This document shows, in pieces, positions 12,390 through 25,745 of a stretch of DNA of 49,752 nucleotides (position 1 is the first letter of the stretch; every line of letters starts with the position of its first letter). The DNA is taken from the IMG/VR virus record IMGVR_UViG_3300032322_001862, positions 1-49,752 of that record, one strand, 5' to 3'. The stretch is from a virus. The notes beneath the pieces were generated by a model. The model was not told the origin of the DNA, did no database searches, and saw nothing but the letters and a program-made list of their open reading frames with translations. A program made the translations under genes and the position numbers.

Positions 12390-14381
12390 CTATTGCTGAG
12401 AAGGGGTAAGTGCATCAATTCGCGATTGAAGTTCCTGTGGAGTTACATAACGCAGCCCCTCTTCCTGAAGCTGCATGATGGCCGTTTGCCTGATGCTTTG
12501 TCGTTGGGTTATGCCAAGCTCTTGTTTGCTGGCACGACCAGTCGAAGTAAGCGGGAATTGAGTGCTGTGGCGCATAAGATCCACAAGGCCTGTGTTATCT
12601 AGGTCCTCAACGCTGTCCCATCTCCCCGACCGAACAAAATCTTGGACAAAAGGCAGATATTCGTCCTTCGGCTTTCTATTGCCCTTGCCTTTGATCTGTT
12701 CAATGACTGGGGTGTATTTTGGAGGAACTCCTGCCTCTTTCAAAGCTTGGGTCATCTGTTCGGAGTCAAGTTCCCCCGTCACGTTGGGATTACGCACCCG
12801 CCATTGCCGAATGTATTCTCGATACTCCGCCCTGGTTTGCGGCGTTAGCTCCACATTCCGCCGGTATGCCGGATCTTGGAAGTCCAGCCCATACGGATCC
12901 ACAGGGGGCACAACCTCGATCGTCACATGCGGGGCGCCGGTCTTTTTGTCCCGGAGAGAGTAGATCTTCGATCGCCCTGAAAGGACATCGTCGCAGTACC
13001 CGCCCACACAGTGCCCCATCATGTCGCCTTCGTATCGCAGGGCCTCCTGTAGCGCCCCCCGACCCTCGGGGGTGTCTGCCCTAAGCTGAAACCACCCGTA
13101 CTTCTGGTCCGGGTAATCCTTAAACGGCGCGGTGGCTGCGTTGTTCGCCAGAGCAAAGTTGGCTTCTGCCTTCTTCTTCTCACGCCACTTGTTGATCTTG
13201 CTGACATGCCGCACAGCATCCGGCACGGACATGCGGCCGAGCTGCTCGTTGGTCAGACGAAGCTGCTGCGGCAGGCCGGACTCTGCGTCAATGGAATTCA
13301 ACAACTCATCACGAAGGTGGTCAAAGCCAAGATCCCGTCCGATATCTTCCGAAGGTAGGTAAAGCTTACGATCGGGGTCGGCTTGTGCGACCTTATAGAC
13401 CCAAGGGTTTTCGTCCATGAAACGCTTCAGGCCTGGAGCCGAGGGATCCGTTTTGGCCAGCTTGCCAAGACGCATACCTCTGCCCATCATGTAGTCAGTG
13501 GCACCTTCCCACACACGAGCGGGGCCTGACTCTGCCATAAGCGTTGGGGCTGGTTGGCCTAAGAGGGGCACACCATACCGGCTGGGATCGTAGTTAATCA
13601 TATCCGGATTCACATGCAGGATGCCCTGCTCCGCCAACTTGCGGATCGGATCCTCCGGCGTCGCCATCTCGTTCCTAATATAGCGATCTAGCTTGGTGCC
13701 AAGCCAATTGTTTACAGCCGCTTCCTTGGTAGATGCATTTGCTCCTAACTGCATTCCCTCAGTGTCAGGCTCAAACAGTTTCATTGACTCAACAGCCTCC
13801 AACCGCTTCGGGAAGTCCCCGCCCTTGGGCTTGACGACTTGCGTCATCACAGGCTTTGAACGCCCGCCCGGCGTAAGGTTGCTGGCAATGAACTCCGTCA
13901 TGCTGGCAGGGGATTTGGCGGCCTGAACGCCGACATCCACAAACGCTGAAGCCAGGTTCTTGGCCGTGGTCAGCGGGTCTTGCGCCGCCTGCGATACAGC
14001 ACGATTGACCGACCCATACGTCTCTTTGCTTCGTGCGGGGGCGGTGCCTTGTAGCTCGACAGGCGATCGCTCGCGCACCGATTGCATAAACCCACCAAGA
14101 TAGTCCCGCGCGCCCCCGAACGTCTGCGCCATGCCTTCAAGCGCGCTCGTAATGCCACGGCCCGCAGCAGCACTCAATACCTGCGGGTCGTAGGATTTCA
14201 AATCTCTCCAACCAGGCTGCTTGACCGGCGCGCCGCTCGGGGGACTCGTCGGTATTGAACGCGACAAATCGGAGCTCTCTAGTAACGAACGATACAAATC
14301 CGCGCTCGTCTCTCCCGTACGCGGGCTGCCCTTCGCGCGGCGCTTCGGTCGTACCTTGAGCCCTGACAGCGCGTTCTTCAT
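12390..14381 (-). CDS. PcfJ-like domain protein, unknown role
   Basis: 663 residues. A PcfJ-like segment spans about 425-492: YGWFQLRADT, EGDMMGHCVGGYCDDVLSGR and KIYSLRDKKTGAPHVTIEVV; the invariant HCVGGY is at 457-462. PcfJ-like proteins are known from conjugative plasmids and phages, without an established activity. Residues 1-420 are low in known domains, with Ala/Gly-rich helices (about 66-160). The C-terminal part holds HSTQFPLTSTGRASKQELG and a helical end. The start overlaps the stop of the 897-aa gene (ATGA), and the portal gene follows. The location between terminase and portal is unusual for an accessory gene and suggests a virion or packaging link. Function not known. Confidence 0.75.
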   Translation of the reverse strand: MKNALSGLKVRPKRRAKGSPRTGETSADLYRSLLESSDLSRSIPTSPPSGAPVKQPGWRDLKSYDPQVLSAAAGRGITSALEGMAQTFGGARDYLGGFMQSVRERSPVELQGTAPARSKETYGSVNRAVSQAAQDPLTTAKNLASAFVDVGVQAAKSPASMTEFIASNLTPGGRSKPVMTQVVKPKGGDFPKRLEAVESMKLFEPDTEGMQLGANASTKEAAVNNWLGTKLDRYIRNEMATPEDPIRKLAEQGILHVNPDMINYDPSRYGVPLLGQPAPTLMAESGPARVWEGATDYMMGRGMRLGKLAKTDPSAPGLKRFMDENPWVYKVAQADPDRKLYLPSEDIGRDLGFDHLRDELLNSIDAESGLPQQLRLTNEQLGRMSVPDAVRHVSKINKWREKKKAEANFALANNAATAPFKDYPDQKYGWFQLRADTPEGRGALQEALRYEGDMMGHCVGGYCDDVLSGRSKIYSLRDKKTGAPHVTIEVVPPVDPYGLDFQDPAYRRNVELTPQTRAEYREYIRQWRVRNPNVTGELDSEQMTQALKEAGVPPKYTPVIEQIKGKGNRKPKDEYLPFVQDFVRSGRWDSVEDLDNTGLVDLMRHSTQFPLTSTGRASKQELGITQRQSIRQTAIMQLQEEGLRYVTPQELQSRIDALTPSQQ

Positions 14382-17071
14382 GGCTTCTTTTGCTTTACCG
14401 CGCCGCCCTTGGCGTACCCCGTACGCTCTTTCTTCGGCAGGACCCGGGCCTTGTTCTTGTCCACGTACTCGCGCGCGAGCCGCACAACATCCTCGTCCGT
14501 CATGGCCCGCTTGCCGATCTCCCGGCCCAACGCGTCGTTGAAGAGATCCATCGCCTCCTCCTCATCCGACTGCCCGGGCGAAGTAAACTCATGCAAACGG
14601 CTCACTACGTTCGCCGTTCTCGGGCCAATCCTGCGAGTCAGATCCGCCTGATACATCAGGTGCCGCATCGCATCGGCCTTGCCGCCGCCAGACTCCTTGA
14701 GGCCATACGCCGCAACCGACTCCCGCTCGGCACGCTGCGGAATGTCCGCAATCTTCAAAAACTCCGCTGCACCACGCTTCGCCTTTCGCGCGCCACGGCC
14801 GGCCAGCTCGATAAGCTCGTCCAACTGCTCACGAAGCACGCCCTTCGCCTCACCGCCTTCGTTAAACCGACGCGTCATCAGATCCCCGAGCCGCGATAAC
14901 TGCTTCTTGGTCAACTTCTCCGCGCCAAAGGTGTCACGCATCAAATCCTTCGCCGACATCGCATCCCGCGAACGCACGGACTCGGACATCTTGAGAAGCT
15001 CCGCGAGCGTGTCCGGAGCACCCTTTGGCTCTTGGGCCGCGGTCAACGACTCAAGCTCCATGGCCATGCCCTTCGCAGTGCCCCTGTCCGTCTGCTTGTT
15101 GATCGGCCGCCGCGTCGCACGACGCACAGTCTGAGAGACCGGCGTCGCGTCAAACTCCACCTGCGTCTCACCAGGCGACTCCGACAAACTCTCCAACATG
15201 CCACGCGCAGAGTCGATGTTCTTCATCGACTCCGCATACGAGTCCTTGCTGTCACCCTTCAAGAGCGCAAGCAACTCAGCATCCGAAGACGGACCACCCT
15301 TCGCACGCCCCGTCGGACGCACCGCCCCAGGCGACAGGATGATGTTGCCAAAACGGTCCGTGTAATACCCCGCGTTCTGCGCCCCACCCAACATCGTCGG
15401 CCCAAGGTTCGGGTTCGCAGCAAGCGCCTGCAACGGCAGATCGCTCGTCTGCAAGCTCGGCAGCCGTGTGCTCGAGGGCAACGTGCCAGGGCTCAAGGCC
15501 CCAGGAGTCGGCGTGAAATACGGGGTCGATGTGCCTTGGCCCGGGGCAACGGGCAAGGGGTTCGCAATATACCCCGGCGTCGGAATGTTCGCGGTCGGGA
15601 TGTACCCGCCACCAGGAATGCCCGTGGCCGGAGGCGACACAGGGATGTCGAACGAAAGCTGCCCCGGCGCAGGCCTTTCACTCACCGTCCGCGGAGAAGG
15701 CGTTCCGCCCCCCGAGCGAGTCTTGCTGCCAGCAGGGGGCTTCCCAATCCGGCCAAGCAACCGCCCAACATCGCTGTTCTGGTCGATCGCGCTCCAGTTA
15801 AAGTTAAACCCACCACGGTCCGGGGTGCCGGTGTCCGGCTTCTCGTCCCGATCGTCAATGCCGTTCAGGTTCTTGTCAATGAAGTCTGCCGTACGAACCC
15901 GACTCGAATCGTCTTTCGGCGGCTGAGAGGTCGGAGGATTGACCGGCAACCCGCTGTCAACCAGCCCAGGGGGCGGTACCGGAGGCGGTACCGGAGGCGG
16001 TACCGGAGGCGGCCGGTTCCTGCGAGCTTCTTCTGCTGCACGCCGGGCTTCCTCTTCAGCAGCCATCCGACGAGCGTTCTCCTCCGCTAGGCGACGGGCT
16101 TCCTCAGCCGCTCGAGCAGATTGCAAATCCTGCTCCTCACGACGACGAGCCGCTTCTTCAGCCGCCCGACGAGCCGCTTCCTCAGCCGCCCGACGAGCTT
16201 CCTCTTGAGCAATGCGCCTGGCGTCTTCCTCGGCCTTACGACGAGCTTCTTCTTCCGCGGCTTTGCGGGCGGCTTCTGCTTCTGCTGCACGACGGGCTGC
16301 CTCCTCTTGCGCTGCTCGGCGAGCAGCTTCTTCTCGAGCCAAACGAAAGGCCTCGCGCTCGTCCTCGTCCCGACCAGGATAGTCTCTTGTTCCCGGACGG
16401 ACGCCAACGTCAAACGGAGGCCGTAAAAGATCCTCCTGCTCGCGCGTCTCTCGCCGCAGACGAGCACGCACAGCCTCATCCGCACTCATGGACATGCCAG
16501 AGGTTGTCGGCGGCGGGGCGGCGGCCCCGAAAACCGGAGCACCCTCTGGCTGCTGCCTCGGGATGTAGTCCCGCTCTTCCGCAACAGGAGGCAGGAAGGA
16601 CGGCCGGCCATACACCGGACTCGGCGGAGCGCCAGGGGACTCGTAAACCCTCGGCGGGGTGTACGCAGGGGGAGCAAACTGCTGAAGATCCGCCGCCGCA
16701 GAGCCAGGCTGCGCGGCCACCGGGGGCTCCGACTCAGGCTCTACCTGAGTGCGCATCGTGTCAGGGGCTACCGAAAACCCGGGGAACGGGGGAGCCACAA
16801 CCTCCGATCGAGGCGCAGGCATCATCGGGTTATCCCCAAACAAGCCTAACGGCTCCTCCCCCTCACCAAGCGCCTCCATCCCAAACACAGGCTGATACTC
16901 GCGCAGCTTCGTCTTCGGGTTCTTGGTCCCCGCGCCACCGAGCTTCTTCAACAGCTCACGGGCCTTGGGGCTGAGGTAAGCCAACTCCGTGTCGCCCCCA
17001 CGGCCTGCGGAAGCAACCTTCTTGATAAACGACGCTGTGTCTTTCTTCGCGGACTTCTTGGCTTTGGCCAT
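14378..17071 (-). CDS. Large Ala/Arg/Glu coiled-coil protein with C-terminal His-Glu domain
   Basis: 897 residues. Basic N-terminus (MAKAKKSAKKDTASFIKKVA), a Pro-rich stretch to about 230, then a highly charged Ala/Arg/Glu coiled coil at 238-352 made of EEAARRAAEEAARR-type repeats, a PPPVPPP repeat at 354-368, and DKNLNGIDDRDE at 399-410 that looks like a single calcium-binding loop. A long Pro/Gly/Thr linker follows. The last 110 residues form a separate domain: DAMRH (800-804), LHEF (His827, Glu828) and EEAMDLFNDALGREIG, a pattern recalling DUF6973-type domains with paired His/Glu residues. C-terminal tail YAKGGAVKQ. It lies between terL and the PcfJ-like gene. No function is known; an ejected or virion-attached effector is possible. 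Confidence 0.78.
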   Translation of the reverse strand: MAKAKKSAKKDTASFIKKVASAGRGGDTELAYLSPKARELLKKLGGAGTKNPKTKLREYQPVFGMEALGEGEEPLGLFGDNPMMPAPRSEVVAPPFPGFSVAPDTMRTQVEPESEPPVAAQPGSAAADLQQFAPPAYTPPRVYESPGAPPSPVYGRPSFLPPVAEERDYIPRQQPEGAPVFGAAAPPPTTSGMSMSADEAVRARLRRETREQEDLLRPPFDVGVRPGTRDYPGRDEDEREAFRLAREEAARRAAQEEAARRAAEAEAARKAAEEEARRKAEEDARRIAQEEARRAAEEAARRAAEEAARRREEQDLQSARAAEEARRLAEENARRMAAEEEARRAAEEARRNRPPPVPPPVPPPVPPPGLVDSGLPVNPPTSQPPKDDSSRVRTADFIDKNLNGIDDRDEKPDTGTPDRGGFNFNWSAIDQNSDVGRLLGRIGKPPAGSKTRSGGGTPSPRTVSERPAPGQLSFDIPVSPPATGIPGGGYIPTANIPTPGYIANPLPVAPGQGTSTPYFTPTPGALSPGTLPSSTRLPSLQTSDLPLQALAANPNLGPTMLGGAQNAGYYTDRFGNIILSPGAVRPTGRAKGGPSSDAELLALLKGDSKDSYAESMKNIDSARGMLESLSESPGETQVEFDATPVSQTVRRATRRPINKQTDRGTAKGMAMELESLTAAQEPKGAPDTLAELLKMSESVRSRDAMSAKDLMRDTFGAEKLTKKQLSRLGDLMTRRFNEGGEAKGVLREQLDELIELAGRGARKAKRGAAEFLKIADIPQRAERESVAAYGLKESGGGKADAMRHLMYQADLTRRIGPRTANVVSRLHEFTSPGQSDEEEAMDLFNDALGREIGKRAMTDEDVVRLAREYVDKNKARVLPKKERTGYAKGGAVKQKKP
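15972..16012. repeat. 12-bp tandem repeat inside the 897-aa gene
   Basis: Three and a half copies of GGCGGTACCGGA in tandem, encoding the PPPVPPPVPPP stretch. Perfect copies suggest recent slippage and possible length variation of the Pro hinge. Confidence 0.85.
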
Positions 17072-23092: not shown

Positions 23093-23501
23093 GGGTGTAC
23101 ATCAACAGGCTCCACGGGACCGTACCGTAGTGATAGCCCACAACGGGGTCCGTATCGATGCCGGACTTCGCGAGCTCGAACACTTGCTTTCCAGAAAACA
23201 GCAAGAGCTGCCCCTCCCTCGAGGCCACCTTACCGGGGGGCACGTACAGGACCAGAATGAACGTCCGCACTCCGAGCTCCGCGTGCCGGGCGTGAAAGGC
23301 AATCTGGTGCGGCGACAAGGCCACCTTGCGCCCGCGTTTCACCACCTTCAGCTCGACCGGGACAAACTCCCCCGTCTGCTTCAACGCGATGAAGCAGTCC
23401 GGGATGCCCAGATTTACCCGCGACTCAATCCGGGTAATAAGGCAGTTTGGGAGGTTTTCCTTTAGCCTTTGGTACAGGCTTGTTTCGGGCTTTGACGGCA
23501 T
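23079..23501 (-). CDS. VRR-NUC-type PD-(D/E)XK nuclease
   Basis: 140 residues from ATG 23501; the longer upstream frame lies inside terS. Residues Glu27 (RIESRVNLG), Asp35 (GIPDCFIAL), Glu50-x-Lys52 (VPVELKVVKRG) and a downstream Gln66 (SPHQIAFHARHAELG) form the PD-(D/E)XK arrangement of VRR-NUC or Holliday-junction-resolvase-like enzymes. It probably cuts branched replication or packaging intermediates. It overlaps the last 77 bases of terS in another frame, so the two are tightly linked. The fold is short and complete; the exact substrate is inferred. Confidence 0.8.
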   Translation of the reverse strand: MPSKPETSLYQRLKENLPNCLITRIESRVNLGIPDCFIALKQTGEFVPVELKVVKRGRKVALSPHQIAFHARHAELGVRTFILVLYVPPGKVASREGQLLLFSGKQVFELAKSGIDTDPVVGYHYGTVPWSLLMYTLAEA

Positions 23502-24138
23502 CCACAGGCTCCTCGGAGGGCTCCGGTTCGGGGGGTTCCAACTGGATCGGCTCCTCGAGGCTTTCCTCCACCTGCTGCGGCGTGACATCGATGATGGGGC
23601 TGCCGTTGCCGTAGAGCTTCTTGATTTCCTCGAGCTTGCGCATGACCTCCTCCTTACTCATGGAGTCAATCGTGCCGTGCCGAATCTCCTTGCGGTCGAT
23701 GTAAATCGTCCCAAGGGCCTGCCCTCGACGATACTCGGCCTGTACGGCGGCCCCGTAGGCCCCCGCGGACAGCGCTTGGTCCCGGATGACCTGAAGGTCC
23801 CGCATGTGCCGCTCGTAGGTCGTGCCGTACTTCTCGGCCATCTCCGCCCGGACCTTCTGGATGGCCGCGACGATGTGCGGGTTGACATCCGAATTGGTCA
23901 GGTCCTCCGCCCTACGCTTGGCGTTCTTCTCGGGCCACCCCGCACGGACCACGGCCTCCTGCAACGTCACATGGCCGTCCCCCGACACAAACTCGTGGAC
24001 GAACTTCCATTCCTGCGTCGTGAGCTCGCGGCTCTTATGGGGCTTTACGGGCCGTGCCAGCTTCTCCAGCGTCTGGGGCTGGATACCCCTGCCCATCTTC
24101 TTGCTGAACTCCTTGTCGGCTTTGCTGCGCAGTTTCAC
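23425..24138 (-). CDS. terS: Terminase small subunit
   Basis: 237 residues from a GTG at 24138 that overlaps the upstream stop (GTGA) and has GGAGGG before it; the longer frame to 24216 runs through the upstream gene. The DNA-binding part is LTTQEWKFVHEFVSGDGHVT, LQEAVVRAGWPEKNAKRRAE, DLTNSDVNPHIVAAIQKVRA, the terminase_2-type helix-turn-helix pattern (compare the LTxQQxxFV...AAxxAGY...A...L...P.V...I). Helical oligomerisation region follows, then an acidic Pro/Glu-rich tail and a basic C-terminus. It recognises the phage genome and hands it to TerL, which lies about 5 kb downstream. Confidence 0.85.
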   Translation of the reverse strand: MKLRSKADKEFSKKMGRGIQPQTLEKLARPVKPHKSRELTTQEWKFVHEFVSGDGHVTLQEAVVRAGWPEKNAKRRAEDLTNSDVNPHIVAAIQKVRAEMAEKYGTTYERHMRDLQVIRDQALSAGAYGAAVQAEYRRGQALGTIYIDRKEIRHGTIDSMSKEEVMRKLEEIKKLYGNGSPIIDVTPQQVEESLEEPIQLEPPEPEPSEEPVDAVKARNKPVPKAKGKPPKLPYYPD

Positions 24139-24350
24139 GCGACCCTCCAGACCCGCCAGCCGTCCTCGACCTTTCGGCACGAAAACTTCGTCCCGTGGCG
24201 CTTGGAAAACATCCACGCGGCGCTCCGGGCGTTCTTGGCCGACTCGGCATCGGCTAACAGGAAACTGTCCCCTACGGCCATGACAGGGAATGGGTACTTC
24301 TCCCGCTGGGCTTCGGCGGGGATCGGAATGCCCGAATCAACTCTTAACAT
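24135..24350 (-). CDS. Conserved small protein (DUF7303-like)
   Basis: 71 residues. YPFPVMAVGDSFLL, ARSAAWMFSKRHGTKFSCRK and VEDGWRVWRV match a very common small phage family (DUF7303-like) with a conserved YPF...VGDSF...RVWRV frame. Function unknown; basic surface. Stop codon overlaps the GTG of terS. This is the first gene of the terS transcript, facing the divergent gap with the inverted repeat. Confidence 0.8.
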   Translation of the reverse strand: MLRVDSGIPIPAEAQREKYPFPVMAVGDSFLLADAESAKNARSAAWMFSKRHGTKFSCRKVEDGWRVWRVA

Positions 24351-24399
24351 GCCACTAGTCTACTCCGAGCAATTCGGGATCGTCTAGGGGCTAGAGGCC

Positions 24400-24426
24400 G
24401 CGGTAGTAGAACCTCAGAGGGGTCTA
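24400..24426. repeat. Inverted repeat, left arm
   Basis: 27 bases (starting GCGGTAGTAGAACCTCAGAG) that match the reverse complement of 24592-24618 at 24 of 27 positions. The arms are 165 bases apart. Confidence 0.9.
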
Positions 24427-24591
24427 CTAGTTTTTCATTTCAGAAAAACGACCCGCGCGCGCACCCCAGAGAAATTACCCCTATTGAACCTCCGTAAGTC
24501 TCCGTGTAGCTCTAACACGTTGATCTACAAACCTTCTTACACCTATTACGGCATTACGGTAAATTTTAAAAATTTTTGAAAAAAAATTCAC

Positions 24592-24618
24592 TAGACCCCT
24601 CTAGGGTTCTACTGCCGC
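24592..24618. repeat. Inverted repeat, right arm
   Basis: Partner of 24400-24426; ends ...GTTCTACTGCCGC. The A/T-rich core of the gap lies just left of it. Confidence 0.9.
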
Positions 24619-24697
24619 CGTGTTTTGAGCACTTTTGTATACTTTTCGTTGACAAAACTGATATATTGCCCCGTGGTCCATGGTCCATGGTGAACAA

Positions 24698-24982
24698 ATG
24701 AAGCAAGTTGACCTTGAACATATTGACAGGTGGTACGCCTACGATCCGAACACGGGGGAGGTCTACCGTAAAACGACCTACGCCACCCTTTGCACCCCCG
24801 ATGGCTATGGTGGTTACAAGGCGAGCATTCGCGGCAGGATGTGTTCGGTTCACAAGATCGCGTGGTTCTTGAGCCACGGCGAATGGCCCACGTTCCAGTT
24901 ACGGCACCGGGATGGGGATCGCCGTAACAACCGGATCGAGAACTTGGAGCCGGTGTCGCTGAAGCGGGCTAACGCAGCTTAG
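24698..24982 (+). CDS. HNH endonuclease (HNH_3-like), lone plus-strand gene
   Basis: 94 residues from ATG 24698; an in-frame ATG at 24680 would add six residues coming from the GGTCCATGG repeat. WYAYDPNTGEVYRKTTY, VHKIAWFLSHGEWPTFQLRH and RDGDRRNNRIENLEPVSL give the HNH_3 pattern (H...H.DGD..NNR..NL). The position normally Asp/Asn before the second His is Arg here, but the catalytic-type His, Asp and Asn residues are present. It is flanked by minus-strand transcripts on both sides. It could be a homing endonuclease or assist packaging, as HNH proteins beside terminases do. No good ribosome site is visible. Confidence 0.8.
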   Translation: MKQVDLEHIDRWYAYDPNTGEVYRKTTYATLCTPDGYGGYKASIRGRMCSVHKIAWFLSHGEWPTFQLRHRDGDRRNNRIENLEPVSLKRANAA

Positions 24983-25063: not shown

Positions 25064-25312
25064 TTACTGGACGCCGGCGCCCATGGCCTTCTTGAAGTCC
25101 CCTTCGAGCATACGGGCGGCCGTGCGGCCGGTCATGATTTCGCCGAATTCGATTTCGGAGATATCGACCTCGAGGGGGCCTGGGGTGAGCCCGGGGACGA
25201 CGACCACGGGCCCGACGAGCCCGTAGCGTGTGCCGTTGATCGTGAGGGTGATCATCTGCACGAGTGAGGCGCAGTCGTGGTCCGTGGTCCGTGGTTCGTC
25301 CATGTGGTTCAT
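25064..25312 (-). CDS. Small hypothetical protein
   Basis: 82 residues. The first 17 (MNHMDEPRTTDHDCASL) are encoded by a GGACCACGG-type repeat; the conserved part then starts at MITLTINGTRYGLVGPVVVV, followed by EVDISEIEFGEIMTGRTAAR. An internal ATG at 25255 could be the older start. Its beta-rich body is not one I can name. It is the last gene before the terminator, coupled to the upstream gene by ATGA. Confidence 0.65.
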   Translation of the reverse strand: MNHMDEPRTTDHDCASLVQMITLTINGTRYGLVGPVVVVPGLTPGPLEVDISEIEFGEIMTGRTAARMLEGDFKKAMGAGVQ

Positions 25313-25545: not shown

Positions 25546-25745
25546 GTTGCGGTCTCCCTCTCGTAGTAGCCTTCTTGGTTCAGGATGGCGCGTACCATGC
25601 TCTCAGCGGCGAGGGCGTCCTCGACCAGCGGCCGGAGGGCCTTGGTCCGTGGCTCGTGGTTATAGCCTCCTGTGAGCTCGAGGGTGAGCCCTTGGAGGGC
25701 CATGTTGGCCTCGTGGAGGGCGAGGAGGGTGTCTTTGCGGTTCAT
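25539..25745 (-). CDS. Small hypothetical protein
   Basis: 68 residues from ATG 25745 that overlaps the upstream stop (ATGA); the longer frame is inside the DUF6378 gene. MNRKDTLLALHEANMALQGL, then EPRTKALRPLVEDALAAESM. Mostly helical, slightly acidic. I do not recognise the family. Confidence 0.65.
   Translation of the reverse strand: MNRKDTLLALHEANMALQGLTLELTGGYNHEPRTKALRPLVEDALAAESMVRAILNQEGYYERETATC

Follow-up and report, generated by a model that had tools for sequence, protein, structure and literature searches.

A conserved element with mutually matching inverted arms and an IHF-type core beside the small terminase gene of aquatic phages, a candidate packaging-initiation site

We analysed a stretch of viral DNA of 49,752 bases (hereafter referred to as the window), which is the entire IMG/VR record. 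Its nearest named relatives, as judged by TerL, are DSL-LC04, 023Pt_psg01 and the Pelagibacter phages HTVC027P and HTVC023P. An element of interest is located between the early operon and terS (Table 1). The initial annotation had reported an inverted repeat with arms at 24400-24426 and 24592-24618, enclosing an AT-rich region between terS on the minus strand and a lone HNH gene on the plus strand. This description was borne out: the arms match as reverse complements at 24 of 27 positions, the element is 56% AT in a genome of about 60% GC, and the two genes lie as described, with a 71-aa gene between the element and terS. Ungapped extension lengthens the match to 29 of 36 positions, with 147 nt between the arms. 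Among inverted repeats with inner gaps of 110-230 nt, this one has the highest score in the genome (22; the runner-up scored 14), and the maximum obtained from 30 dinucleotide shuffles of the full window sequence was 17. The arm consensus occurs in the window at these two places only, with 0.01 occurrences expected. What the initial annotation missed is that the core between the arms is itself a conserved structure of iteron-like repeats and an IHF-like site.

Table 1. Features of the element and neighbouring genes in the window
Feature	Coordinates	Strand	Basis or remark
terS-side inverted arm, outer edge 24400	24400..24435		36 nt, 81% complementary to 24583-24618
HNH-side inverted arm, outer edge 24618	24583..24618		complementary to 24400-24435
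A/T tract inside terS-side arm	24430..24449		sequence; relatives have A/T tracts at the same place
CGCGCGCGC run	24454..24462		relatives: (GC)n run at this position
Iteron-like repeats, terS side of IHF site (GGTAATTT; inverted CCGTAAG)	24473..24498	-	sequence; conserved in alignment
IHF-type site GATCAACGTGTTA	24513..24525	-	8/9 defined positions of WATCAANNNNTTR; near core centre
Three iteron-like repeats ACCGTAAT GCCGTAAT AGGTGTAAG, ~9 bp apart	24532..24561	-	sequence; relatives: GACGTAATAGACGTAATG(G/C)(T/C)GTAA
A/T tract inside HNH-side arm	24564..24590		sequence; relatives have it at the same place
sigma70-like promoter TAGACG-N18-TAGACT, outside arms	24357..24386	-	sequence
71-aa gene between element and terS	24135..24350	-	phrog_10287 relative
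terS, small terminase of SPP1/SF6 (Terminase_2) type	23425..24216	-	phrog_51; profile matches
HNH endonuclease gene (HNH_3)	24680..24982	+	optional neighbour, outside the conserved element

Several further features of this neighbourhood were recorded. The counterpart of the sigma70-like promoter in relatives reads TTGGCA/CTGGAC-N18-TAGACT. Its -10 hexamer ends six bases before the ATG of the small gene at 24135-24350, an arrangement conserved in relatives, and this gene appears to be leaderless. The annotated start of terS may lie too far upstream, with the true start further downstream. The tetranucleotide CTAG is depleted in the window (40 copies, 99 expected), yet six copies fall within the 250 bases 24355-24604. 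Dispersed CCGTGGTCC / GGACCACGG repeats are found at 24668-24688, 25279-25299 and 25637-25657, and in almost every window-like relative such repeats also sit next to the element, on the side of the early genes. Elsewhere in the genome, the block 12390-17071 between TerL and portal, which encodes PcfJ-like and DUF6973 proteins, is highly mosaic and is replaced between otherwise near-identical relatives.

Relatives were collected through the window's TerS (80 loci) and through the TerS proteins of HTVC027P, HTVC023P, 023Pt and DSL-LC04 (262 further loci). The same layout was found beside terS in five phage groups, which extend from freshwater window-like phages and DSL-LC04 to the Pelagibacter phages HTVC023P and HTVC027P and to 023Pt_psg01, with inverted arms at the homologous place in other groups as well. 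Over some 200-250 bp, the order is an arm, an A/T tract, iterons spaced by about 9 bp, a central IHF-type site, iterons again, often a GCGCGCG run, an A/T tract and the inverted arm. The (GC)n run is present in most window-like, DSL-like and 023Pt-like elements and in several HTVC027P-like ones, and was not found in HTVC023P-like elements. The short repeats on the two sides of the IHF site, recognised by eye, recur about every 8-10 bp and differ between groups: GACGTAAT in window-like and many DSL-like phages, TTGTAACA in HTVC027P-like, CTAGGAAA in HTVC023P-like and TGTGCCA in 023Pt-like phages. The IHF consensus was matched near the core centre at 9/9 positions in 48% of the genomes and at 8/9 or more in 86% (36 of 42), as compared with 0.8% and 18%, respectively, in shuffled sequences. 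Among inverted repeats of this spacing in the DNA scanned, the element ranks first in the window, L007, L041, L049, L058, DSL-LC04 and 023Pt, and narrowly so in HTVC023P; in HTVC027P the inverted repeat becomes visible only when an indel is allowed, and in L029 the element was not detected by the inverted-repeat score. The core pattern was also seen in a contig of 58 kb from an Armatimonadetes MAG (L505:5862-5886; CAIRTT010000055.1), which is probably a binned phage. Searches of the open-paper literature found no described site of this layout, and the architecture appears to be undescribed. The inverted repeat is the visible portion of a larger conserved control site, which is common to a large group of abundant aquatic phages.

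The element is tightly linked to terS. A scan with the core pattern recovered 112 further contigs, and all 103 that reach terS, from window-like and DSL-LC04-like phages, carry it on the same strand, 183-677 bp away; in the remaining nine, which have no terS, the core lies close to a locus end. In HTVC023P-like phages, the element directly precedes terS by about 25-250 bp. In the HTVC027P- and 023Pt-like phages, two marine groups, it lies within about 3 kb of terS, though the orientation of terS differs. For the isolates HTVC023P and HTVC027P, both grown on Pelagibacter HTCC1062, the element is placed at L092:11622-11842 and at 14.7-15.0 kb, respectively. We found no clean case of a relative that keeps terS and has lost the repeat, a situation that the initial annotation had listed as counting against a role for it, but some relatives retain the core with arms that match poorly. 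We regard it as highly probable that the region is a conserved functional cis element.

The arm sequences are wholly different between lineages, for instance GTTCCTATAGGATACACTCTCTGAGAATTC in DSL-LC04, TAGTAGAACCCTAGAGGGGTCTA in the window and AACTTYATTTACGTGT in L065; their outermost part (TAGTAGA / TATAGA-like) is the only portion that is widely similar by eye. The two arms of one genome nevertheless match each other. When left arms were compared with inverted right arms, the mean local score was 19.1 for own pairs and 11.3 for foreign pairs, a difference not equalled in any of 20000 permutations (p<5e-5), and the own right arm ranked first of 41 in 17 genomes. A match within genomes that so far exceeds the match between genomes counts against neutral drift. 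It is not perfect, and a minority of genomes have poor or mixed arms (L014, L021, L028, L030, L059, L060 and L078). The relative L005 has another arm type than the window, yet its TerS is 98% identical and its primase, helicase and polymerase are 99-100% identical to those of the window; these four proteins therefore do not read the arms rigidly. It appears that the arms travel within a block.

We propose, with a probability of roughly 0.45, that the element at about 24400-24618 is a packaging-initiation (pac-type) site at which terminase is loaded and which is folded by IHF. TerS, of the SPP1/SF6 type that forms rings in its solved relatives, would bind the iterons on both sides of the IHF site. 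Host IHF would bend the DNA sharply at the central site, aided by the A/T tracts, and the resulting fold would place the two inverted arms side by side in two-fold symmetry. TerL, positioned on the folded site, would then make the first cut, followed by headful packaging. We lean moderately towards this reading because of the linkage to terS and of a layout, with short repeats flanking an IHF-type site, that resembles those of lambda cosB and P1 pac. By profile, the small terminase is of a type known from pac phages: that of the window matches the SF6-type structures 4zc3, 3zqp and 2cmp as well as phrog_51, and the TerS homologues of HTVC023P and HTVC027P fall just below the cut-off of the Terminase_2 profile. 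The cos phage PaP3, however, has a TerS about 22% identical to that of SF6. When ten phage proteins were compared, the similarity of TerS followed that of the core best (rank r 0.79, partial 0.54), with the helicase second (0.77, partial 0.42), a small margin obtained from genomes that are not independent. The genomes of HTVC023P-type phages were closed into circles through overlaps at their ends (PMC9599517), which is compatible with permuted genomes. The other arm type of L005, the poorly matching arms of some relatives and contig ends that do not stack weigh against the packaging reading.

Of three groups, two, the HTVC023P-like and the DSL-like (loci L309-L378 in this count), show an excess of contig ends within or close to the element; the ends are scattered, without stacking on one base. 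Upstream of terS in HTVC023P-like loci (L197-L276), the first 500 bases hold 12 contig ends, and elsewhere there is about one per 250. Such an enrichment reflects either assembly breakage or physical ends; a pile-up as a sign of fixed ends, looked for here, was set aside since the ends are scattered. A packaging signal hidden within the terS coding sequence was likewise discarded as a candidate: the peaks of synonymous conservation at 24160-24204 and 23431-23475 coincide with overlapping reading frames and are uninformative.

Known packaging sites share parts of this layout. P1 pac, a 161-bp site in the order HEX4/IHF/HEX3 inside pacA (PMC10028697), is of similar size and also combines two groups of short repeats with an IHF site at the small-terminase gene. 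It lacks long inverted arms, however, and its repeats are Dam sites, whereas the present element is intergenic and its repeats vary between phage groups. Lambda cosB, ordered R3-IHF-R2-R1 with I1 as the IHF site (PMC4856287), similarly has its repeated sites arranged around a bend made by IHF, close to the gene for the small terminase, and it has A/T tracts. It differs in that we identified no cosN-like site in the present element, which has repeats on both sides and is accompanied by a TerS of the SF6 type, not the lambda type. In SPP1, the TerS sites bracket the cut at the start of terS (PMC6316719). This pacL - pacC - pacR arrangement of SPP1/SF6 resembles the element in its related TerS type, its position adjoining terS and its bracketing, possibly symmetric layout. 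Unlike the arms described here, pacL and pacR share no identity; no IHF site has been reported for SPP1, and its pac extends across the start of the gene 1 coding sequence. We know of no packaging site of which inverted arms are a part.

The main alternative is a replication origin, a tenable if less probable scheme in which an initiator, perhaps the AEP/PriCT_1 primase or some early protein, would bind the iterons, IHF would bend the centre and the A/T tracts would melt, with the inverted arms acting as mirror-image priming or loading sites, one for each strand. Replication origins are just as typically furnished with iterons, an IHF site and A/T tracts, a point against the packaging reading; the element also stands where the early operon ends, and the primase has AEP and weak PriCT_1 matches. 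The replication genes, on the other hand, are several kb away while terS adjoins, and the primase follows core similarity poorly (partial 0.07). The cumulative GC skew, an indirect sign, reaches its lowest point next to the element in the window, L007 and L058 and has a local low nearby in L049, but a switch at the site was not found across the family, being absent from DSL-LC04, HTVC023P, HTVC027P and 023Pt. The iteron origins with IHF of plasmids pSC101 and R6K are alike in having A/T-rich stretches along with these sites; they differ in that the present repeats are shorter and closer together, that no initiator is recognised beside them and that the DnaA-box-like TTATCCACA occurs in a single relative. 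Typical Rep iterons are longer than the 8-10 bp spacing seen here, which also counts against an origin. The relative in question, L037, carries the exact TTATCCACA in the right half of its core, about 200-400 bases upstream of terS.

The remaining explanations are less probable. The element could, though improbably, be a maturation site for short direct terminal repeats, with the arms nicked on opposite strands and the ~200-bp core duplicated to both virion ends: the podoviruses LUZ24 and tf, which have a related TerS type, carry terminal repeats of 184 and 186 bp, close to the arm spacing, and the enrichment of contig ends in the HTVC023P- and DSL-like groups would fit. Yet those ends do not fall at arm edges, and the repeat boundaries of LUZ24 and T7 are not inverted, LUZ24 having a direct GGGGAATATCCC at both. 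Transcriptional control, by which the arms would be paired operators or divergent promoters for terS and the genes opposite, is similarly improbable. It would suit an element that is intergenic between the early and terS operons and has some arm edges similar to TATA or T7 promoter starts, and SPP1 pac, too, overlaps promoters of its terS gene (PMC6316719). Against it, the terS promoter lies outside the arms, which have no further copies in the window, the far side often lacks a divergent gene, and a T7-type RNA polymerase (PF00940), the single-subunit polymerase that such promoters would use, was not found in 10 genomes, the T7 control being positive. Inward-facing terminators that shield the core from transcription on both sides are very unlikely. 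The arms of the window do form weak hairpins with T runs on the inner side (z -2.3 and -1.6), but arms are mostly non-self-folding (mean z -0.86 and -0.25; positive in DSL-LC04), and a stable hairpin with a T run in each arm was not found across relatives, DSL-LC04 having none. We give hardly any credence to a site for site-specific recombination, whether attP or a segment that inverts. A core enclosed by two inverted sites with partial dyad symmetry would be in keeping with one; however, the core has a single orientation relative to terS in all aligned window-like relatives, a recombinase search limited to tyrosine integrases (PF00589) found none in 10 genomes (14/14 controls positive), and HTVC027P is described as obligately lytic (PMC12753301), which counts against this reading. 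Just as implausible is the scar of an inserted HNH element: an HNH gene adjoins the element in the window and L007, and a divergent one is present in L029, but L013, L018, L022 and L058 have the element without the HNH gene beside it. Of the four readings that the initial annotation had offered, this one falls and a bidirectional operator as the sole function is weakened, while packaging and origin both stand.

Returning to the proposed packaging-initiation site, the variable but mutually matching arms raise a more general, and rather speculative, idea, that of a class of cis sites in phages whose paired inverted arms are almost unconstrained in sequence beyond the requirement to match one another. 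Arms of this kind might conceivably be read through their symmetry after folding by IHF, or through pairing, and not through a fixed sequence. It is no less conjectural that they would diversify fast, or swap as blocks between co-infecting phages; this would perhaps deny parasites or rivals the use of the site. A single element of about 220 bp that freshwater relatives share offers a well-defined target for experiments. If it is true that the arms need only match each other, such a rule would be uncommon among phage cis sites.
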